Shown here piece by piece: positions 1,270 to 18,519 of a stretch of 31,770 bases of DNA. Made by a program: the position numbers and the translations under genes. The first letter of the stretch is position 1. Each line of letters opens with the position of its first letter. The notes beneath the pieces are model-generated. The model ran no database searches. It was not told the DNA's origin and saw only the letters and a program-made list of their open reading frames with translations. This stretch comes from a virus, in the IMG/VR virus record IMGVR_UViG_3300024433_000030, positions 1 to 31,770 of that record; one strand, 5' to 3'.

Positions 1270-3534
1270 ATGGCTACTAAAATTGATTCATATATTGTTA
1301 ATGATGATTCAAACGGTACTGTAATTTCAGGCAATGCTTGGGAGTCTCAAACTTTTACAACATCTCAAGCTTATAATATCAGTGCTGTAAAATTAAAACT
1401 TCTTAGAACAGTAGGGTCAACCCCAGGCACAGTAACAGTAAGTATTAAAGCTACTGTTAGTGATAAACCTTCTGGAGCAGATTTAGTGGTTGGTACTACA
1501 AGTGGAAATACTTTACCAGAATTAGGTTCTACACCAGAATGGAGAACAATTACATTTACATCTGTTGCTGCTTTAACAAATAATACGAAGTATGCAATTG
1601 TTGTTCGTGCTGCTGCTAATTATATAGCGTGGAGAGTAGATGTTTCAAGTCCCACTTATGCAGATGGTTCAAGAGCATTTTCCACAAATGGGGGGACAAG
1701 CTGGACTCTTGATTCTGGTGATGACTTCATGTTTGAAACCTATGATGATAGTGGTGCCGGAGCCTCATCTCCATCATCTGATAAAACATATAGTAAAAAA
1801 CTTGTTGCTATTGGTAATAATGAAGTGTGGCATCAAACAGATACTACTACAATGTCTGATTTTACAAATGCTACTGGTGGTGTAAATACTGCTAATCCAT
1901 TAACAGTTTGTGATGCATTTCAAAAACTGTTTATCGCTAATCAAACCAATCTTAAAGTTGTCGATTTTATTAATACAAAACTTACTACTGCTACAGCACC
2001 TACAAATAATCCTAATCCTGGAACTGTTTTAACTGCTGATGTTTCAAAAGCTTCAATGATAGTAGATTATGTTGCTCCTGATGCCAAAACTATATATGGT
2101 AAAAGAACTACTGTTGCAACTTTTGGAGCCGAAGTAATATCAGGCACAGATGACGATGGTAATGATATTGATTTTACTACAAGTATTGTTGAAACTGCTC
2201 CCCCACATTGGTATAACTGGACTGTGTTTGGTAATGTAGCCGATGCAGATAAGTATGGTACAATGCCCACTTCTGCTTATTTGGTTTGTAGATATAGAGG
2301 TCGCCTCGTTTTATCAGGTGACCCTAACTATCCTCACCAATGGTATATGTCTAAGATTGGATTTCCATTTAATTTCTTATATGGTACAAGTGACCCTATG
2401 AGTGCTGTTGCTGGAACTAATGCAGATGCAGGAGAACTGGGTGATATTGTTAGAGCTTTAATTCCGTTTGGCGATGATTTCTTAGTTTTTGCTTGTGCTA
2501 ACTCTATTCATTTGTTAAACGGTGACCCTGTAGCTGGTGGAAGTATTGATGAATTAGATAATAAAACTGGAATCTTTGGCCCTTGGGCTTGGTGCATAGA
2601 TGGAGTAGGGGATTTATGGTTTTACGGTACTGGTGGTTTATACAAAATGGCAGGTGGCCGTTTTAAACCTATAAATATTAGTCAATCACATTTACCACAA
2701 TTAGTTGATACTTGGGCTGCTGTACCTGGGACTCATCGAGTAGTTCTTACTTATGACCCGTTTAGAAATGGTGTACTTATTTCAAGAACTACATTGGCTG
2801 ATGGAACAAATCTTAATTATTGGTATGACTTAAAGACAGAGGGGTTCTATCCTGAAACTTACCCAACTGCTTGTGGAGTATTTTCCTCTACATATTATGA
2901 TTCTGACACAGCAGCTACAAAAGGGTTGGTGTTAGGTTGTAACGATGGGTATATAAGAAACTTTTATGACGCAGATAAGAATGATGATGTTGGTACAACT
3001 AATAGACAAATTTCAAGTTATGTTACTTGGCCTATACAGCATTTAACAGAAGATAATGATAAAGAAGGTAAGTTAACTTCTCTTACTATTGAATTAGCAG
3101 GTGGTGGAGCAAGTGGTGATTTTGGCGATACAGATGAAGTAGATTATGAAATTCATGTTGCTGATGATGCGGAGACTTGTTTAGAAAAAATTAAAGATAG
3201 CGATACCCCCTTTACTTCGGGTACACTAACAGGAACAGGGCGTAAAGCAAGAATAAGAACCCGTGTTCGTGGGGCTTACTTAGGGTTAAAGTTTTATAAT
3301 GTAATTACCACAACTGATTGGGCAACTGCTACTGTATATGCAGTTGATAATTTGGTGGTGTATAGTAACATAGAGTATGTGTGTATTGTTGCACATACTT
3401 CTGATGTAGGTGGGGGTGATGGAACAGGCGGAACACCGGATGGTAATCCAACTGATTGGACAGCTACTACTGCTCAGACTTGGGCCATAAACCGTGTATT
3501 TGGTGAGATAAAACCTGCGGGCAAAATAAAGTAA
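1270..3534 (+). CDS. Large tail/neck-type virion protein with C-terminal carbohydrate-binding-like segment
   Basis: A 754-residue protein. Residues 1-140 look like a beta-sandwich of the sort added to secreted and virion proteins. The centre (about 180-620) has repeated aromatic beta motifs such as RLVLSGDPNYPHQW and GDLWFYGTGGLYKM, which resemble tail-associated or stopper proteins of podoviruses. Near residues 690-735 the pattern of a tryptophan, an NLVVYSNIEYVC strand and HTS recalls chitin-binding modules (CBM5/12-like), suggesting contact with a surface glycan. GGTGG precedes the ATG by seven bases. Family assignment is from pattern memory only. Confidence 0.65.
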   Translation: MATKIDSYIVNDDSNGTVISGNAWESQTFTTSQAYNISAVKLKLLRTVGSTPGTVTVSIKATVSDKPSGADLVVGTTSGNTLPELGSTPEWRTITFTSVAALTNNTKYAIVVRAAANYIAWRVDVSSPTYADGSRAFSTNGGTSWTLDSGDDFMFETYDDSGAGASSPSSDKTYSKKLVAIGNNEVWHQTDTTTMSDFTNATGGVNTANPLTVCDAFQKLFIANQTNLKVVDFINTKLTTATAPTNNPNPGTVLTADVSKASMIVDYVAPDAKTIYGKRTTVATFGAEVISGTDDDGNDIDFTTSIVETAPPHWYNWTVFGNVADADKYGTMPTSAYLVCRYRGRLVLSGDPNYPHQWYMSKIGFPFNFLYGTSDPMSAVAGTNADAGELGDIVRALIPFGDDFLVFACANSIHLLNGDPVAGGSIDELDNKTGIFGPWAWCIDGVGDLWFYGTGGLYKMAGGRFKPINISQSHLPQLVDTWAAVPGTHRVVLTYDPFRNGVLISRTTLADGTNLNYWYDLKTEGFYPETYPTACGVFSSTYYDSDTAATKGLVLGCNDGYIRNFYDADKNDDVGTTNRQISSYVTWPIQHLTEDNDKEGKLTSLTIELAGGGASGDFGDTDEVDYEIHVADDAETCLEKIKDSDTPFTSGTLTGTGRKARIRTRVRGAYLGLKFYNVITTTDWATATVYAVDNLVVYSNIEYVCIVAHTSDVGGGDGTGGTPDGNPTDWTATTAQTWAINRVFGEIKPAGKIK

Positions 3535-3543
3535 AGGATTAAA

Positions 3544-4335
3544 ATGGCTATTGAACAAGAATATATGTCAGCAAAGCGTGCTAATGAATTACGCTATGCT
3601 CAGGCTATGCAAATTTATGATGAAATAATTAGGCGTTATCAGCCTGGTGGAACGTTTGGACAGGCAGCATTAGGCCAATTAGAAAAACAAAAGGTCAGAG
3701 ATGTTGGTAGAGAAACTCAACAAATGATTTCTTCTGGTTTATATGGTACTACGACTACTGCTGGATTACCTGGGAAATGGGAAGCAGAAGTTGGTGCTCC
3801 TACTCGATTAAGGCTTGAAGATATTATGATGGAAAGGTTATCTCAAGCTCAAATTGGTAAAGCGGGCTTTATTGAACGTAGAGAAGATGTTTACCCTGAT
3901 GTTGGTGCTTATGCTGAGCAAACCGCTGTTGATGCTCCAACTTTTACAAGAACATACGAAGAAGGCCCATCTCCCTGGGAGGCTGGTTTTATGGGAGGTG
4001 GATTTACGTTAAGTGGGGCTGACCCATTTGCTGGCGGTACTACTCCAAGAACTGGTGGTACTGGTGGAGCAGTTTATGGCTCAGGTACAAGAGAGGCTAC
4101 AATGGCTGAAAGAGAACGTAGGAAAAAAGCTGCTGCAACAGTAGGTCAAGCTACTACGACACCTACTTATGGGCAAGCTCAACCATCACAACAAATAGGT
4201 ATGACAGGAGGAACGGGAGTTCAAACAATATACAAACAAGAAACAAAGGGTGGAGAACAGGTAATGGGAATATATAAAGGCAACAGACGTGTTGGTTCTT
4301 ACACAATGGCACAATACGCAGCTTTGGGAAAATAA
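3544..4335 (+). CDS. Putative internal virion protein, helical N-terminus and Gly/Thr-rich C-terminus
   Basis: A 263-residue protein. Residues 1-120 are charged and helical (for example KANELRYAQAMQIYDEIIRR-like content), and residues 125-215 are low-complexity Gly/Thr/Ala. The last 40 residues form a small basic unit (MGIYKGNRRVGSY). AAGGA lies eight bases before the ATG. It sits between the tail/neck protein and the fibre gene. I recognise no named family. A minor virion or DNA-ejection component is the likely role, inferred from position and composition. Confidence 0.6.
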   Translation: MAIEQEYMSAKRANELRYAQAMQIYDEIIRRYQPGGTFGQAALGQLEKQKVRDVGRETQQMISSGLYGTTTTAGLPGKWEAEVGAPTRLRLEDIMMERLSQAQIGKAGFIERREDVYPDVGAYAEQTAVDAPTFTRTYEEGPSPWEAGFMGGGFTLSGADPFAGGTTPRTGGTGGAVYGSGTREATMAERERRKKAAATVGQATTTPTYGQAQPSQQIGMTGGTGVQTIYKQETKGGEQVMGIYKGNRRVGSYTMAQYAALGK

Positions 4336-4338
4336 ATT

Positions 4339-6309
4339 ATGGCTCTTGTGCCCTCACCCAAAAACTGTGACCCAAGTGTAAAAAAAGCAATCCAACTCTT
4401 ATCGTCTAAGTTGGATTATGATTCTCGGCGTACATTTGAAAACATTACCCTAACAGATTTAACAGCCTCGTCTTTAATTGGTACTAATGCGAGCAAACTA
4501 CTTGAATCAGTAACCATAGGTACTGGTCTTGATTATACCAGACCAACTCTATCACTATCCCATCTTGGCATTGAAGTCCTTACTGACCCTGGTGTAGACA
4601 AGATAATGTTCTGGGATAACTCCGCAACTGCCTGTAATTGGTTGGGTATGGGCAACTCTGTGGCAATTACAGATGTTACATTAGATACAATTCAGGATAT
4701 TCGCACAACTGCGTGGCCACAATTTGTACATACTAATACTGCATTATCCTCTCAAATTTTAACAGGCGGTGTAATATCAGCAGGAACTAATGCTGGTACA
4801 ATCAAAGTAGCTGCCTTGACTGCTTTATTACGAACTGGTGCAGGAGCAACAGACCCATTAGTTAAGATTACATTAGCAGAACAAGATAATATAACACTTG
4901 CAGCAGTTGATACATTTTATAATGTTCGATTAACTTATGGTAGTCCTTGTACAATAGCTACTTCTACAAGCAGTGGAAACGGTGCTAATATAATTGGGAT
5001 AGGTCATTGTCTCAAAGAAACAGATGGTACAAGGCATTATGCAAATGCGGGGTTACGTTTAAGTGATGGAGTTAGAAAACTTCATAATCGAGCCTCAACA
5101 TTACGCCGAATTGAAAAGGGTTCGGGAGGAGCTTTAGTAAGTGACCCCAGCACAAGAAATCTTTATATTACTGCTGGTACATTTCATCGTGGTGTTAATA
5201 GTTATAGTTTTGCAGCAAAAGACACTTCTGCTGCACCTACTCCTGATACATTTGATTACTATTATTATAATCCTACAACATCTGCCTGGGTGAAAGATGA
5301 TAATACTGGTAATCATTATACACAAATAGATAATGTTCAATATAATAATGTAGCTGCTGGCACGGGACTTGCAAACCTTACAACAAATAAATATACTACT
5401 AATTGGGTATTTGTTCATCCCGACGATGAACATATTTTAGTTGTTTATGGTCAAATTAATGGAACACTTACTGCTGCTCAGAATGAAAGCATCCCTGCTT
5501 CACTACCGGATATTATCGATAAAATGGCTGTGTTTTTATGTAAGGTTATCATTCAAGAAGGTTCTGATACTTTAATATTTGAGAATGTAGAATACTTTAC
5601 TTTTACACCTGATATAACTGTTGACCATAATGAACTACAGGGGTTACAAGGTGGGACTGCTAACGAATATTATCATCTTACTTCTGCAGAGCATACTTTA
5701 ATTTCAGCCGTTGGTGGATTAATTCCAACTGATAGTAACTTTATAGTTGGTAACGGAACTACTTGGGTAGCTGAATCAGGTGCTACTGCACGAACATCAT
5801 TAGGACTTGGTACTGGAGATAATCCTACATTTAATTCTCTTTATATAAATGGGCCGAATGCAGATGATGTACATATTCATAGTTCTTCTGGAGATGGGCC
5901 TTCTAAAATAAAAATAAGTTGGGCTGACGTTACAGAACAAGGAGAATTTATTTTTTATGAAGGTGCTACTTTTATGGGTAGTTTCGGAGTATTTGGAAGC
6001 AATTATGCTGATGTATCTTGGCGAAATGCTCTTTTGTTCTCAGCAACAAATAATAATTTAGGAAAGATGGTTTTTCGGACAAAAACAAACAATGCCTATA
6101 AAAATAGAATGATAGTTTCAAATGCGGGTTTAGTTGGTATTCCAATCATAACAAATTCAATGCTTACAGCAGATGGTTCTTTATCATTAAAAGAACAAGC
6201 ATCCGCAAATGCTGATACAGCAGCTTACGGACAAATATGGGTTAAGAATGATGCACCGAATACTCTTTGGTTTACAAGAGATGATGGAACAGATGTACAA
6301 ATTGCATAA
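4339..6309 (+). CDS. Tail fibre protein
   Basis: A 656-residue protein with fibre hallmarks: long Thr/Ser/Gly/Asn-rich beta stretches, a segment near residue 435 (HNELQGLQGG followed by EYYHLTSAEH) that recurs widely in phage fibre and collar proteins, a TSLGLGTGDNPTFNSLY linker near 490, and a C-terminus ending WFTRDDGTDVQIA, typical of fibre shaft or tip ends. Its last base is shared with the next start (TAATG). It would bind the host surface. No peptidase-like chaperone motif is evident at the C-terminus. Confidence 0.8.
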   Translation: MALVPSPKNCDPSVKKAIQLLSSKLDYDSRRTFENITLTDLTASSLIGTNASKLLESVTIGTGLDYTRPTLSLSHLGIEVLTDPGVDKIMFWDNSATACNWLGMGNSVAITDVTLDTIQDIRTTAWPQFVHTNTALSSQILTGGVISAGTNAGTIKVAALTALLRTGAGATDPLVKITLAEQDNITLAAVDTFYNVRLTYGSPCTIATSTSSGNGANIIGIGHCLKETDGTRHYANAGLRLSDGVRKLHNRASTLRRIEKGSGGALVSDPSTRNLYITAGTFHRGVNSYSFAAKDTSAAPTPDTFDYYYYNPTTSAWVKDDNTGNHYTQIDNVQYNNVAAGTGLANLTTNKYTTNWVFVHPDDEHILVVYGQINGTLTAAQNESIPASLPDIIDKMAVFLCKVIIQEGSDTLIFENVEYFTFTPDITVDHNELQGLQGGTANEYYHLTSAEHTLISAVGGLIPTDSNFIVGNGTTWVAESGATARTSLGLGTGDNPTFNSLYINGPNADDVHIHSSSGDGPSKIKISWADVTEQGEFIFYEGATFMGSFGVFGSNYADVSWRNALLFSATNNNLGKMVFRTKTNNAYKNRMIVSNAGLVGIPIITNSMLTADGSLSLKEQASANADTAAYGQIWVKNDAPNTLWFTRDDGTDVQIA

Positions 6310-11826: not shown

Positions 11827-12124
11827 TATCTAAACTCTCCAAATATTCAATAATAATATCACCGTGACACGGTAAAGGTGTACACCAACAACCTAAAGTT
11901 TTACCTTTTAGGCCTTGAACAGCTTTTCTAAAATCTGAATCAATTTCTATACAAATATAAAACCACTCTTTATAGGCTGCTACAACCTCTTCTCTTGTGC
12001 CGTGTTCTACACCTATATGAAATGGATTACCAAATATACTTCTCCTATCAATAGGTATAACTTTTGACCTATCAAGATTATATGTTCTATAGTTAACTAA
12101 TTTAGTTTTCTTGGTTACACTCAT
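11819..12124 (-). CDS. DUF4326 family protein
   Basis: A 101-residue protein matching DUF4326 by its two signature parts: SIFGNPFHIG near residues 29-38 and GCWCTPLPCHGD near 78-89. The family is common in phages and may have a nucleotide- or sugar-related fold, and its biochemical role is not established as far as I know. The start overlaps the stop of the polymerase C-terminal fragment (ATGA) with GAGG seven bases upstream, so it is translated from the same message. Confidence 0.85.
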   Translation of the reverse strand: MSVTKKTKLVNYRTYNLDRSKVIPIDRRSIFGNPFHIGVEHGTREEVVAAYKEWFYICIEIDSDFRKAVQGLKGKTLGCWCTPLPCHGDIIIEYLESLDND

Positions 12125-12885
12125 ATCTTTGCCTCTGCATAATTTTGTCCGATTCCAATATCAACTATTACTGGTATATCTAACGTAACTGCAGCTTCCA
12201 TAACTTCTTTAAGTTCTTTTGCTATATCTTCTGCATACTTCTCTTCAACCTCATATACAAGCTCATCGTGTACAGATAATATTAACTTACAAACCCATTC
12301 AGGATGCTGTAGTATAATCTTTCTAAAGTTACCTGCTGCTGCCTTCATCATATCGGCTGACGGACTTTGAATTAAAAAATTAAATGCTTGCCTTATAGCT
12401 CTATGAGTAACATAATCAAACCTACGTATTCTACCTAAGATAGTTCTTACTTGTTTATGATGTTGTAACTCATTAGTACATTTATTTATAGCTTCTTTTA
12501 TCTTAGGAAATCTATTGAAGTAATCATCAATAAACTTTTGAGCTTCATCCTGACTTATATTCCAATCCTTAGAAAACCCATAAGCTGTCTTACCATAAGC
12601 CAACCCAAAGTTAACTGTCTTAATCTTATCTCTCTCAGCCTTAAACTTCTTCCTATACATCTTAAAGTCTGGATGAGTTGTAAGCAACGCCTCTTGTGGA
12701 ATACCTAAGTCAAAGAATATATTAGCAATCATAAAATGTACATCTAACTTATCCTTAAACGCTTGTATCATATCAGGGTCTTTAGATACGTGAGCTAACA
12801 CACGAAGCTCCTGTCCCGAATAGTCAGCACATATTAACTTTCTTCCAGGTGGTGCTATAATACAACTTCTTATGTCTATGTCCAT
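12121..12885 (-). CDS. DNA polymerase family A, C-terminal (palm/fingers) fragment
   Basis: This 254-residue fragment carries all three polymerase motifs: A (DYSGQELR, residues 21-28, with the metal-binding Asp), B (R85...K89...FGLAYG, fingers helix) and C (VHDE near 205-208, second catalytic Asp). It lacks the thumb and exonuclease, which are in the separate frame at 13382-14458. The start is uncertain. ATG 12885, with GGAA six bases upstream, makes the protein begin exactly at the first native codon after the insertion; an in-frame ATG at 12897 adds four residues but has a poorer SD. It must associate with the N-terminal fragment, or be joined at RNA level, to work. Confidence 0.85.
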   Translation of the reverse strand: MDIDIRSCIIAPPGRKLICADYSGQELRVLAHVSKDPDMIQAFKDKLDVHFMIANIFFDLGIPQEALLTTHPDFKMYRKKFKAERDKIKTVNFGLAYGKTAYGFSKDWNISQDEAQKFIDDYFNRFPKIKEAINKCTNELQHHKQVRTILGRIRRFDYVTHRAIRQAFNFLIQSPSADMMKAAAGNFRKIILQHPEWVCKLILSVHDELVYEVEEKYAEDIAKELKEVMEAAVTLDIPVIVDIGIGQNYAEAKI

Positions 12886-13418
12886 AAATGTTTCCATACT
12901 TTCTTATTTATTATAAATCCTATTGTTCTACGAGATATATTATAAATATCTGCTATTTTTTGTTGGGTAAATAACTTAGTTCTATACATATAAATAATCA
13001 TTCGTACATCAACTTCAGTTAGTTTAGCTCTACCATGTTGTTCGCCTTTAACATGTTTATAAGCAAATGGTGTATAAAATGTACCATGATTTATAGCATC
13101 ACGTCTATTAGAACTACGTGTATCCCACCTTAAATTTTCAATCTTATTATCTGTTTTAATCCCATTATTATGACAGGCTTCCATTCCTTTAGGACAATCA
13201 CCAATAAAGGTTTCTAAAATTAATCTATGAACTAACCTACGGTATCTTTTTTTATTTTCCCATAAAGAAATATCATAATAACCATGACTGCCTATAGTTG
13301 GTTTAAGAAAACGCTTACTTAAATATGACCATATTTTCCCATCTATAGTAGCTGCATAATTACTAAATTGTGGTATAACTTTTATTTTGGGAGCTGCTGA
13401 AGGTTGGGATGTGAACAT
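12876..13418 (-). CDS. HNH homing endonuclease (NUMOD4-HNH) inside the polymerase gene
   Basis: A 180-residue protein. Residues from about 13 (KVIPQFSNYAATIDGKIWS) fit the NUMOD4 DNA-binding motif. The HNH core follows (VHRLILETF, then EACHNNGIKTDN and IENLRW), and the C-terminal 40 residues hold a helix-turn-helix-like unit (TQQKIADIYNISRRTIGFI). The same layout is found in I-HmuI, encoded in the polA intron of phage SPO1. The start is at ATG 13418 because AGGGAG lies seven bases upstream, inside polymerase codons. The first eleven codons overlap the polymerase in another frame, and the stop lies in the downstream polymerase sequence. Confidence 0.88.
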   Translation of the reverse strand: MFTSQPSAAPKIKVIPQFSNYAATIDGKIWSYLSKRFLKPTIGSHGYYDISLWENKKRYRRLVHRLILETFIGDCPKGMEACHNNGIKTDNKIENLRWDTRSSNRRDAINHGTFYTPFAYKHVKGEQHGRAKLTEVDVRMIIYMYRTKLFTQQKIADIYNISRRTIGFIINKKVWKHLWT

Positions 13419-14458
13419 GATAATCTCCCTGTTACACAAACGGTATTATGAAAATTTGCTCTTATACGACCATCACTTTGTACATATTCAGGTAATGGTT
13501 TAAGAAACTTGTTCATTAAAGAAATAGCTTTACGGTAATCCAAAAGTAATACTACAAATTCATGTTGGTTTTTAACACTATTAAGTACAGCTTCTTTAGT
13601 ACTATATTGCCCTTTAGGATGTAACTTAGATGATTTAGTTTTTTCTGTGAGCTTAACTCCTAAACTTAATAACAACTCTGAAAGTTGGGCAGGACTATTT
13701 AAGTTAATATTAGATACCATATTGTGGGTTTGTCCATCAACATCACCACAAATATATGAAATACCACCAGCCTCATACATAGCTATCTCAAGTTTATCAA
13801 TTATAGCTTGAAGCTTTGCCCTTAATCCTTTGATAGCATTTTGGTCTATCAACGCACCATTAATTTTCATATCCATTAAGCAGAACTGAAAGGGACGCTC
13901 TATATTGTACCATAAATCCCATAATTCTTGTTCTTTTAATTTTGGTACTTGTATTTTATAAAGTAAATATGTCCACACACTATCACTGGTTGCATAATTA
14001 TAAAATCTGTTAGAGTGAAAGCCATTCTCAACAGCATATTCAAATGACATTATTTCACTATTATCAATATGTAAATGTTTTTCTGCTAAATGTTTTAACC
14101 CCTTTTTACCAGACTCGTTCAATAAGTGCTCCGCCGTCATAGTACAAAATATATTGTCCGTATGAAAGACATCTAACTGACGTAAGATTCTACCATCAAA
14201 AGAAAAGTTATGAGCTATTAAGGTTTCAATATTATTCTTACATATATCTTTTAAGATGTATATTAATTCACTATATTGTGGGTTGTCTAATACATCAACG
14301 TAACAAACAGAACTACCGTTGTATAAACTCCAACCAGCTATCTGTAAGGTTAAATAGTTTATATCTACACATTCAAAATCTATTGCACAAGTAGATAAAT
14401 CATTAGATTTAACCCACGTTCTAAAATCTTCAGCCTTTAATATTATACTTACTTTCAT
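13382..14458 (-). CDS. DNA polymerase family A, N-terminal (3'-5' exonuclease and thumb) fragment
   Basis: This 358-residue fragment opens with a DnaQ-type proofreading domain: exo I IDFE (about 26-29), exo II AHNFSFDGRIL near 100, exo III around YNYATSDSVW near 158. A helical thumb follows, and the frame ends at GRLSCSHPNLQQLPK, the conserved segment directly before motif A. TAA follows the last Lys codon. The next native residues (DIDIRSC) resume 502 bases later in the other fragment. I prefer ATG 14458 over an upstream TTG, though AAGG is rather far (12 bases). It works only together with the C-terminal fragment. Confidence 0.87.
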   Translation of the reverse strand: MKVSIILKAEDFRTWVKSNDLSTCAIDFECVDINYLTLQIAGWSLYNGSSVCYVDVLDNPQYSELIYILKDICKNNIETLIAHNFSFDGRILRQLDVFHTDNIFCTMTAEHLLNESGKKGLKHLAEKHLHIDNSEIMSFEYAVENGFHSNRFYNYATSDSVWTYLLYKIQVPKLKEQELWDLWYNIERPFQFCLMDMKINGALIDQNAIKGLRAKLQAIIDKLEIAMYEAGGISYICGDVDGQTHNMVSNINLNSPAQLSELLLSLGVKLTEKTKSSKLHPKGQYSTKEAVLNSVKNQHEFVVLLLDYRKAISLMNKFLKPLPEYVQSDGRIRANFHNTVCVTGRLSCSHPNLQQLPK

Positions 14459-14506: not shown

Positions 14507-15220
14507 CTAAATACTGGTTCTTCTTTCTGTTACAAATGGTTTTAGAGCTAAATAATTACCATCTAACTGTATTACATCTTTTTCATTATGGTCAAGTATA
14601 TATTCAAGAGCTTTTTTTCTTTCTAACTTACTACCAAATTGTACAGCCAACCATTTATCAGGATGTATTCGAGTTTTAATATCATAATGTTGTACTGCTG
14701 CTGCAACATTACCTTGACGATTACTATTAAGACATAGTTTACTTCTTGCCCATAACCACGTATCACTGTGCCATATCATACCCATAGTTGGAAATGGTAA
14801 GTCCCATCTAATAGCTCTTGTTCTAATAAATGGAATATCAAATCGACAAGAATAATGGCCTACAAGCCTATCATATTTCCACATAGTATTAATCAATGTT
14901 TCGGTTAACCTACGGTCATAACCACCAGTTTGTAAATCTTTAGTAGTAAGACAATCATAGTAGATTTCTTTTGTCCCTGATGTTTTAATACACCAAGAAA
15001 GCATTATACCAAAATTAGCTTTAAGATTGCTGGCTTCAATATCAATACAACCTACTCTTTCAGTTATACCAAAATGTTTATTATAACAGTTTTGATGCCC
15101 TGCACCTATACCTAAATGTCTATGCTCAGGACATCGCCACATAGAGCGTCTTGCTACCTCTTGTTTAGACCATCTAAGAGGGTTAACTTGACTAAATTTA
15201 TATTTTTCAGTATTAGTCAT
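14507..15220 (-). CDS. RNase H-like 3'-5' exonuclease
   Basis: A 237-residue protein with the DEDD exonuclease pattern: CIDIEAS near 58-64 (exo I Asp and Glu), GHYSCRFDIPFI near 123-134 (exo II Asp), and HNEKDVIQLDGN near 212-223 (exo III Asp). A Cys/His-containing N-terminus (WRCPEHRHL) could bind zinc. It differs from the proofreading domain of the neighbouring polymerase, so the phage carries two such nucleases. AGGA lies before the ATG. Likely roles are repair or end-processing during replication. It overlaps the upstream gene by eight bases. Confidence 0.8.
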   Translation of the reverse strand: MTNTEKYKFSQVNPLRWSKQEVARRSMWRCPEHRHLGIGAGHQNCYNKHFGITERVGCIDIEASNLKANFGIMLSWCIKTSGTKEIYYDCLTTKDLQTGGYDRRLTETLINTMWKYDRLVGHYSCRFDIPFIRTRAIRWDLPFPTMGMIWHSDTWLWARSKLCLNSNRQGNVAAAVQHYDIKTRIHPDKWLAVQFGSKLERKKALEYILDHNEKDVIQLDGNYLALKPFVTERRTSI

Positions 15221-17167: not shown

Positions 17168-17376
17168 TCTTCAAATCTCCTTTTCATTTCTGCTTCGAGC
17201 TTTATAGTTTCTATTTCCTCTGGCGTAAGATATTTGTATCTACGAATTATAGTCAACGCCCAATGTACACCTTTTCTAACCTTTCGTGTTAATTCTTTAT
17301 TCTTTCCGTTCTCATAGATACAATGGTGCGTTTGAACACATCCCGTACCTGACTTTTTCCTTGTTTTTCTACCCAT
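17164..17376 (-). CDS. Small basic HNH-like or zinc-binding phage protein
   Basis: A 70-residue protein with a very basic N-terminus (GRKTRKKSGTG), then CVQTHHCIYENG near 13-24, and KGVHWALTIIRRY near 36-48. The HH...H spacing resembles a family of small phage HNH-like proteins, though a full catalytic triad is not clear. AAAGGA nine bases before the ATG supports the start, even though the first 88 bases overlap the 3' end of the primase gene in another frame. Confidence 0.5.
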   Translation of the reverse strand: MGRKTRKKSGTGCVQTHHCIYENGKNKELTRKVRKGVHWALTIIRRYKYLTPEEIETIKLEAEMKRRFEE

Positions 17377-18131
17377 AGTGCTGCGTCCTTTTCACCATTA
17401 AAGTTTTCTACATTCATTACACTAATTCTTGATACTTTTTCTAACTTTTTAGCTAACTTGTTCGCACCATCTATTCCAACTTTATCATTGTCTGGAATAA
17501 TCAAAACAGTACAGCCTTCTAATAATTTAACTGTGGTGGACACAACAGCGTTAGCTCCTGGACGTGCTATACTTTGGAATCCTAAATCATATACCACCGC
17601 AGCATCGTGTACCCCCTCACATACAATAACAACCTGGTTAAAATCTATATCATTAGGTATTACTAACCCAAGCTTACTGCCATTAACAGCCTTTTTACTA
17701 CCATTTAAGAACTGCCTTTGTATTCCAATTATTTCAAAGTTTTCATTACGTAAGGGAAATGTAAATGCTTCGCCTGACCATCCCAACTGGATTGCCTTCA
17801 ATGTTTTAATGGACACGTCCCATTTATTCTGCATAATATTATAACGAAACTCATTGATAACTCTTTGTTCATACGAGTAACTAAGACGCTTCCAATCTAT
17901 GGGATTAGGATACTTATGTTCTTTTTTGTATGCTTTAGATGTTATATCTAATCCTAAGTCTTTGGCTGGGCCAAAAGCTCCACAGCCGAAGCATTTATAA
18001 AAACCACTAAATTCCCCTGTTTTAGATATAAGTAACGAAGCATCTTTATCTGGGTAGTGAAAACAACAACGACACCATATTTCATCTTTATTTTCTGATA
18101 CTATTTGCAACTTTTGCAGCATCTTCTTCAT
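17289..18131 (-). CDS. DNA primase (zinc-binding plus TOPRIM)
   Basis: A 280-residue protein. An N-terminal zinc domain (CRCCFHYPDKDASLL near 20-34, KCFGCG near 46-51) reads the template as in T7 gp4 and DnaG. The TOPRIM core follows, with CEGVHDAAV near 170 (catalytic Glu) and IIPDNDKVG (DxD metal site). There is no helicase domain; the helicase is a separate gene downstream of the right-hand cluster. The start is ATG 18131, with GGAG nine bases upstream; the frame is open further, but that part is only endonuclease sequence in another frame. The first codons overlap the AP2-HNH gene. Confidence 0.85.
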   Translation of the reverse strand: MKKMLQKLQIVSENKDEIWCRCCFHYPDKDASLLISKTGEFSGFYKCFGCGAFGPAKDLGLDITSKAYKKEHKYPNPIDWKRLSYSYEQRVINEFRYNIMQNKWDVSIKTLKAIQLGWSGEAFTFPLRNENFEIIGIQRQFLNGSKKAVNGSKLGLVIPNDIDFNQVVIVCEGVHDAAVVYDLGFQSIARPGANAVVSTTVKLLEGCTVLIIPDNDKVGIDGANKLAKKLEKVSRISVMNVENFNGEKDAALWVEKQGKSQVRDVFKRTIVSMRTERIKN

Positions 18132-18519
18132 TGTTAAACTCTCCGTAAAATTTACCTCGCCATCTAACTCGCCATTTACTTCTATTTTTATCCCACTGAA
18201 CTCCCATAATACGAGATTTGCCCCAACCCCTGCGATTATTATTATTTTCAATACGAGTACAATTCCGCAAGTTTTCTTTTTTATTATCTAATCCATAATG
18301 ATTTATATGGTCAACTTCTAAATTTGCAGGAGTTTCCATAATTTCACGAGCCATGCTTATAATATAACGCTTACCATTTACAGCTTTTGACCAGCGTACA
18401 GCATAAAAAGTCTTATCTTTGCTTCCTCGCACAGCGTGCCAATTATATTTAGACAATTTATTATAATCTTCATCATCTATTATAGTAACTAATCCTTGTG
18501 TGAGATAAATAACTTTCAT
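18088..18519 (-). CDS. AP2-HNH homing endonuclease
   Basis: A 143-residue protein. Residues 1-60 form the N-terminal strand region (ITLTQGLVTIIDD-like, then KYNWHAV). The HNH core is MAREIM, then LEVDHINHYGLDNKKENLRNCT near 68-89. The C-terminal AP2 DNA-binding domain runs from IMGVQWDKNRSKWRVRW near 104 to FNNEEDAAKVA. This is a classic free-standing phage homing endonuclease. It is placed exactly upstream of the primase, and its last 43 bases overlap the primase start, so the primase ribosome site (GGAG) lies inside this gene. Confidence 0.9.
   Translation of the reverse strand: MKVIYLTQGLVTIIDDEDYNKLSKYNWHAVRGSKDKTFYAVRWSKAVNGKRYIISMAREIMETPANLEVDHINHYGLDNKKENLRNCTRIENNNNRRGWGKSRIMGVQWDKNRSKWRVRWRGKFYGEFNNEEDAAKVANSIRK

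Follow-up and report, generated by a model that had tools for sequence, protein, structure and literature searches.

A family A DNA polymerase encoded in two pieces around an HNH endonuclease gene in a viral genome fragment

The window analysed here is the whole of IMG/VR record IMGVR_UViG_3300024433_000030, a linear fragment of viral DNA of 31,770 bases. ORF calling found three consecutive frames on its minus strand (14458-13382, 13418-12876 and 12897-12121), of which Pfam and PHROG assign the first and third to parts of one family A DNA polymerase. The N-terminal polymerase gene (13382..14458, minus strand; 358 aa) starts at ATG 14458, has no stop down to 13385, and covers the 3'-5' exonuclease, the thumb and the first part of the palm; it ends with ...PNLQQLPK (...TGRLSCSHPNLQQLPK) and TAA at 13384-13382, and matches DNA_pol_A_exo1 together with profile positions 21-132 of DNA_pol_A. 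The C-terminal polymerase gene (12121..12897, minus strand; 258 aa) begins METFMDIDIRSC..., is free of stops from 12897 to 12124, has an alternative start at ATG 12885, and carries the remaining palm and the fingers with motifs A, B and C; it matches DNA_pol_A positions 139-381 (E=1e-62). In PHROG 17, the N-terminal frame matches at positions 659-987 and the C-terminal frame at 995-1233. Between the two lies an HNH homing endonuclease gene (12876..13418, minus strand; 180 aa), open from its ATG at 13418 to 12879 with a stop at 12878-12876, which overlaps the N and C polymerase frames by 37 and 22 bases. Relative to L042, L148 and other intact relatives, the insert occupies 12883..13384 on the minus strand (502 bases, GC 0.28), and all of it falls within the HNH frame. 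A sequence-only reading had described the polymerase frames with their coordinates and strand, the N-terminal ending NLQQLPK plus TAA, and an endonuclease frame that spans the entire insert and runs into both flanks, and the ORF, Pfam and PHROG results bear out all of these. Judged from its reading frames, the family A DNA polymerase of the window is encoded as two proteins with an HNH gene between them. The split is far beyond chance, because both halves are strongly homologous to one family and an uninterrupted relative exists.

The HNH gene appears intact. Its frame contains a complete HNH_3 domain (Pfam, E=1e-12) with weak matches to NUMOD4 and to a C-terminal helix-turn-helix, and its protein matches PHROG 59, HNH endonuclease (E=5e-38). 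The sole relative with a solved structure is 1u3e, an HNH homing endonuclease (E=4e-9, residues 20-119), which is I-HmuI of Bacillus phage SPO1. Homology to free-standing HNH genes spans approximately residue 15 to residue 179 of the 180. The start of the gene is written into polymerase codons: a Shine-Dalgarno-like GGGAG (13425..13429, minus strand), 6 nt upstream of the HNH ATG, sits within the codons of the conserved polymerase motif TGR, just as the earlier reading had placed the endonuclease ribosome site, and the ATG itself falls in polymerase Ser-Cys codons. None of 18 relatives has both the GGGAG and the ATG at this position. At the other end, the HNH stop overlaps the start of the C fragment. 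With such overlaps, the cistrons of the N fragment, the endonuclease and the C fragment are likely to be translationally coupled.

The overlap between the N-terminal frame and the HNH frame raises another possibility, namely that ribosomes slip by -1 at C CCA AAA before the stop and produce a fusion of the N-terminal polymerase and the HNH protein. CCCAAAA (13385..13391, minus strand) lies immediately before the TAA in the register that fits -1 slippage into the HNH frame, CCCAAAATAA has one match in the window against 0.21 expected, and both HNH/polymerase overlaps are offset by an equal amount. However, CCA AAA codes for the Pro-Lys conserved in the family, so the presence of CCCAAAA needs no explanation; a canonical slip site was not seen at the HNH/C junction, and the fusion product would not restore the polymerase chain. 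The heptamer is probably incidental as a slip site, and we consider such a frameshift extremely improbable.

The uninterrupted state of the gene can be read from relatives, whose comparison the sequence-only reading had proposed. A search of phage-record nucleotide sequences with the region gave no match; therefore the insert boundaries were taken from IMG/VR protein relatives. The closest uninterrupted one is L042 (IMGVR_UViG_3300027901_000015), whose N part is 56% and whose C part is 71% identical to that of the window; its empty site reads NLQQLPK-DNTGPLPL-RQVII, and L148 is likewise uninterrupted (HQLPK-DDTGPVPL-RQCFI). The window thus has, as in other genes in pieces, an endonuclease gene within a host gene that relatives (L042 and L148) have in one piece. 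Its N frame stops after LPK and its C frame resumes with METFM-DIDI-RSCII. In relatives, 7-10 residues separate the K of LPK from the next conserved R; the window has only DIDI in this interval, or ETFMDIDI if counted from the first ATG of the C fragment. DIDI alone is too short, because relatives have 7-10 residues there. The ATGGAAACATTTATGG stretch (12882..12897, minus strand) gives METFM in the polymerase frame, where it forms the new N-terminus of the C fragment, and WKHLW in the HNH frame. The HNH protein ends in WKHLWT, and WKH[LI]W also closes the free-standing HNH relatives L016, L017, L018, L019 and L025. Because ATGGAAACATTTATGG is HNH coding sequence conserved in these relatives, approximately four native codons of the polymerase loop are gone on this alignment, and the rejoining is not exact. 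The 12883-13384 boundary proposed earlier is kept, while the view that DIDIRSC supplies exactly the next expected residues does not stand, as native loop codons are missing. An insert end at GAA (12894) was considered because the loop would then have the length of that in L042; it was ruled out by the conservation of WKHLW, which marks ATGGAAACATTTATGG as HNH-derived. From the shape of the junction, I conclude that a bare HNH coding sequence was inserted and that the C fragment would now begin with HNH-derived codons.

In the fold, the split follows the position equivalent to E. coli residue 681, in the coil between PNLQQLP and motif A. It lies just inside the palm and not between thumb and palm, where the first reading had put it. 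In a structural model of L042 (23 sequences, mean pLDDT 92), the split site corresponds to residue 345, within a 10-residue coil at 343-352. The same loop carries a different insertion in L051, where an in-frame, zinc-ribbon-like sequence with four cysteines follows LPK at approximately 4934-5001 (LPKPKCYSCGSPKVKEGMCESCNKK).

Endonucleases of this kind are known from introns. I-HmuI, I-HmuII, I-BasI and I-PfoP3I reside in group I introns in polA of SPO1, SP82, Bastille and Pf-WMP3 (PMC3428280), in the same conserved stretch of phage polA in which the HNH gene of the window, itself homologous to I-HmuI (1u3e), is located. Considering this homology, the insert might be a self-splicing intron of degenerate or unusual form whose core overlaps the HNH frame, so that the mature mRNA would be continuous. 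In E. coli numbering, polA introns with related endonucleases, that of I-HmuI among them, are inserted at residue 674, and in the Pf-WMP3 intron the HNH frame extends over parts of the core (PMC3428280). Moreover, one can sketch an excision of 502 bases that has a U preceding the 5' site and a G as its 3' end; the product would read PK-Y-IDIRSC. Against this, Rfam found no family in the whole window at the gathering score; a search of 12700-13700 at E<=10 yielded no group I core either, its single match being to an unrelated sRNA family (E=2.1). The HNH-bearing 672-nt polA intron of Pf-WMP3, used as a positive control, was found by the same method at E=6.4e-6; the core search proposed earlier has therefore been done and found no core. 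The Pf-WMP3 intron has 672 bases and a 486-base frame (PMC3428280), which leaves 186 bases outside the frame, whereas the insert of the window has 502 bases against a 543-base HNH frame that reaches both flanks and is protein-coding by homology in its entirety. Since almost the entire insert is covered by HNH homology (approximately residues 15-179 of 180), no space is left for a ribozyme, in agreement with the earlier remark that almost no sequence for such a core remained outside the frame. The position differs as well: the 674 intron site was confirmed on the Pf-WMP3 sequence, and the split of the window lies seven codons downstream of it, after the 681 equivalent, and coincides with none of the positions known for polA introns (E. 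coli 674, 676 or 881). Exact rejoining would also leave a 4-residue loop, compared with 7-10 residues in relatives. Taken together, a group I intron at the insert is very unlikely, and we regard the degenerate-intron explanation as highly improbable.

A split intein would be another way to restore one chain. No intein-like continuation from either polymerase half was found in the frames of the window; the N half stops after LPK and the C half begins METFM-DIDIR, with no split intein blocks on either. No intron or intein that would remove the insert was thus detected by sequence, as is the case for genes in pieces.

Relatives cut at the same codon also bear on this question. In L126 (contig JAHPYZ010000033.1, binned as a Lokiarchaeota genome), the N part ends ...NPNLQNLPRPGEF with its last codon ending at 4517; a 462-base gap with three small ORFs follows, and the C part starts at ATG 4980 or at ATG 4992, of which the latter shares a stop/start ATGA with the last small ORF. 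In L128 (IMGVR 3300024262_000176) and L129 (3300009149_000116), whose polymerase DNA differs at two positions, the N part stops after LPK and the junction reads CCT AAA TAG GAAATTAAAT ATG GCT AAG; the C part lies in a different frame and starts 10 bases past the stop codon. Without its +1 frame offset, which the removal of one A would cancel, L128 would not be split; the two assemblies agree on this offset. Rfam found no family in L126, L128 or L145, so the same-site splits of L126 and L128/L129 also lack an Rfam intron. As far as these junctions can be read, they show that the two-piece state persists without an intron or endonuclease, and because of them splicing is an unnecessary assumption. 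The earlier proposal of a two-piece polymerase without an intron is supported by these splits without an HNH, by the missing group I core and by the intact L042 and L148. A separate observation concerns the binning: two polymerase relatives, L125 and L126, are on contigs binned as Aenigmarchaeum and Lokiarchaeota, respectively, which are either archaeal viruses or binning errors.

A two-piece gene could also be a broken gene. It is conceivable that the insertion is recent and damaging, that the polymerase is inactivated or decaying, and that the virus uses another polymerase. The HNH is at this site in one contig only, loop residues are lost, and the contig is a 31.8-kb fragment, outside which a second polymerase could lie. 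The halves themselves argue otherwise. The exonuclease residues D27, E29, N84, D88, Y155 and D159 are kept and are common to the window and L042, and motif A (ADYSGQE), motif B (R..K...F...YG) and motif C (HDE) in the C fragment are conserved with relatives. In Tajima relative-rate tests of the window against intact L042 with eight outgroups, no significant difference in rate emerged for either half in 15 of 16; the lone significant one (p=0.04, C half, outgroup L047) had fewer changes in the window. Against L042, dN/dS was 0.41/1.50 in the N half and 0.23/1.39 in the C half (NG86; YN00 was unusable for most pairs owing to saturation). These values include time before as well as after the split, and because of this pre-split time they alone cannot show post-split selection. 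Further, relatives split at the same codon retain both halves, and the clade with a split exonuclease domain, described below, has kept both fragments with dS near or above 1 and dN of only ~0.10-0.25. On this comparative evidence, neither half has lost its catalytic residues or outpaces the intact enzyme in its rate of change, so that both fragments show the retained catalytic residues and the constraint expected of genes in pieces. We thus consider a decaying polymerase improbable.

How the split arose can be put as two possibilities. First, the polymerase may have been split already by another event, with the HNH gene settling later in the gap, comparable to seg43 of Aeromonas phage 25. L128/L129 and L126 are cut at the same codon without an HNH, and the whole-protein tree pairs the window with L128 and leaves the intact L042 outside (96/94). 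Second, the HNH gene itself may have made the cut. HNH-derived DNA is fused to the C-fragment frame and loop codons are missing, as if the junction had been produced by the HNH insertion; in the C-part tree, the window groups with the intact L042 (94/87); and the HNH has homologues whose target in polA lies seven codons upstream. We therefore hold a pre-existing split to be unlikely. The other trees do not agree on one history either: the exonuclease-domain tree again places the window with L128 (98/95), and the tree of thumb plus polymerase supports neither pairing among the window, L128 and L042. A single ancestral split of the window and L128, as the whole-protein tree would have it, was dropped owing to this mixed signal from the part-wise trees. 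Judging from these trees, the split may have been inherited from one event, or a homing gene may have split the gene repeatedly while flanking DNA was exchanged. Because L126 lies elsewhere in the tree, the same site was probably cut at least twice. No second HNH at the same site was found in the plasmid (C-part query), genome-contig and viral collections searched, so that one contig carries it there, although records very near the window may be missing from these collections.

Our preferred reading, in which the HNH gene made the cut, runs as follows. An intronless I-HmuI-type HNH gene would have inserted as a bare coding sequence into a phage-type family A polymerase gene, in the loop that leads from PNLQQLP to motif A, with the loss of approximately four loop codons. 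The gene would then yield two polypeptides from overlapping, probably translationally coupled cistrons, and the N and C fragments would be expected to associate without covalent joining to form one active polymerase. We infer mobility of the HNH by homing, its role as the cause of the split, and the assembly and polymerisation of the fragments. Overall, we are quite confident that this is a gene fragmented by an intronless homing endonuclease, the enzyme working as two associating chains.

Other parts of the family show further cuts. In a sister clade, which comprises L058, L061, L063, L066, L068/L069 and L145 (support 100/100), the polymerase is cut between exonuclease motifs II and III; the first part ends ...KEGIEI and the second starts MPKIFDTLT, a position that corresponds to the coil 95-102 in the L042 model. 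The genes in the gap differ: an N6/N4 DNA methylase in L058, a methylase-like ORF with an MT-A70 methylase in L063, a small zinc-ribbon-like ORF in L069, a methylase in L145, and zinc-ribbon or membrane ORFs elsewhere. Both fragments are under purifying selection (dN ~0.10-0.25; dS ~1-3 or saturated), and the whole of the time compared within this clade may postdate the split. In L145 (1540-5533), one polymerase is interrupted at three places: the exonuclease domain by a methylase and a zinc-ribbon ORF, the thumb by an EndoVII/HNH-like ORF (3210-3671), and motif A by an intein-like insert (ADY|C...GN|CGQE). The cargo frame of L063 (2981-3055) begins MFKRIKDFPNYLVCDDGIVKRG, which resembles the NUMOD4 start of HNH endonucleases; it scores 12.5 bits, above 2000 shuffles, but E=0.16 among ~30,000 frames. 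As a possible remnant of a homing gene behind the exonuclease split, it is suggestive only. A broader reading is that the lineage has been cut repeatedly and independently at solvent-exposed loops by homing genes, that the splits outlast the endonuclease as multi-chain polymerases, and that the gap serves as a slot for methyltransferases and zinc-ribbon proteins; we see the chances of this as evenly balanced. If true, a selfish insertion would be the first of several steps by which a replication enzyme becomes a stable complex of multiple subunits.

It is already known that phage genes can exist in pieces and that family A polymerases can be split. nrdA/mobE in Aeromonas phage Aeh1, the T4 topoisomerase/mobA and the T4-like gene 43/seg43 are intronless splits by homing genes, and the fragments of nrdA and of gene 43 of phage 25 have been reported as active or as co-purifying with activity (PMC2988022). 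Like the window, these systems have an endonuclease gene in an essential phage gene, no intron and two polypeptides; they differ in belonging to T4-like phages, the polymerase among them being of family B, while in the window the divided enzyme is of family A and the gene between its parts is an I-HmuI-like HNH. A split family A DNA polymerase has been published for the OM43 phages MEP401 and MEP402 (Zobellviridae, OP830906/OP830907), whose authors left open whether the gap gene is an intron (PMC10580990). There, too, the polymerase lies in two ORFs, is cut between PNLQ and motif A, and has a gene in the gap. However, the cut is ~20 alignment columns further on than in the window, right before motif A, and the inserted 77-aa ORF has no Pfam match, whereas the insert of the window is an HNH gene. 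Compared with the introns that house I-HmuI-type enzymes, the window has no intron, an insertion seven codons past 674, and a polymerase that stays in two pieces. What is new is a family A polymerase apparently split by an intact I-HmuI-like HNH without an intron, with relatives that are split without an HNH and further split sites.

If the fragments cooperate, this would be a family A polymerase that naturally consists of two chains and whose gene still contains the homing gene that probably caused the split, alongside relatives whose split has outlasted such a gene, making it testable how selfish endonucleases turn single-chain enzymes into obligate complexes. The engineering of split Klenow- or Taq-like polymerases would also gain split points taken from nature. 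In automatic annotation, genes divided in this way will be wrongly called pseudogenes or intron-bearing.

Three further genes of the window deserve mention. A second HNH gene, with an AP2 domain, is located at 18088-18519 and overlaps the start of the primase frame (17289-18251), and a LAGLIDADG-type endonuclease gene lies amid structural genes at 380-826. Directly upstream of the polymerase, at 14510-15220, is a separate DnaQ/RNase H-like exonuclease gene, which is kept beside or near the polymerase in relatives, with 72% identity in L042.
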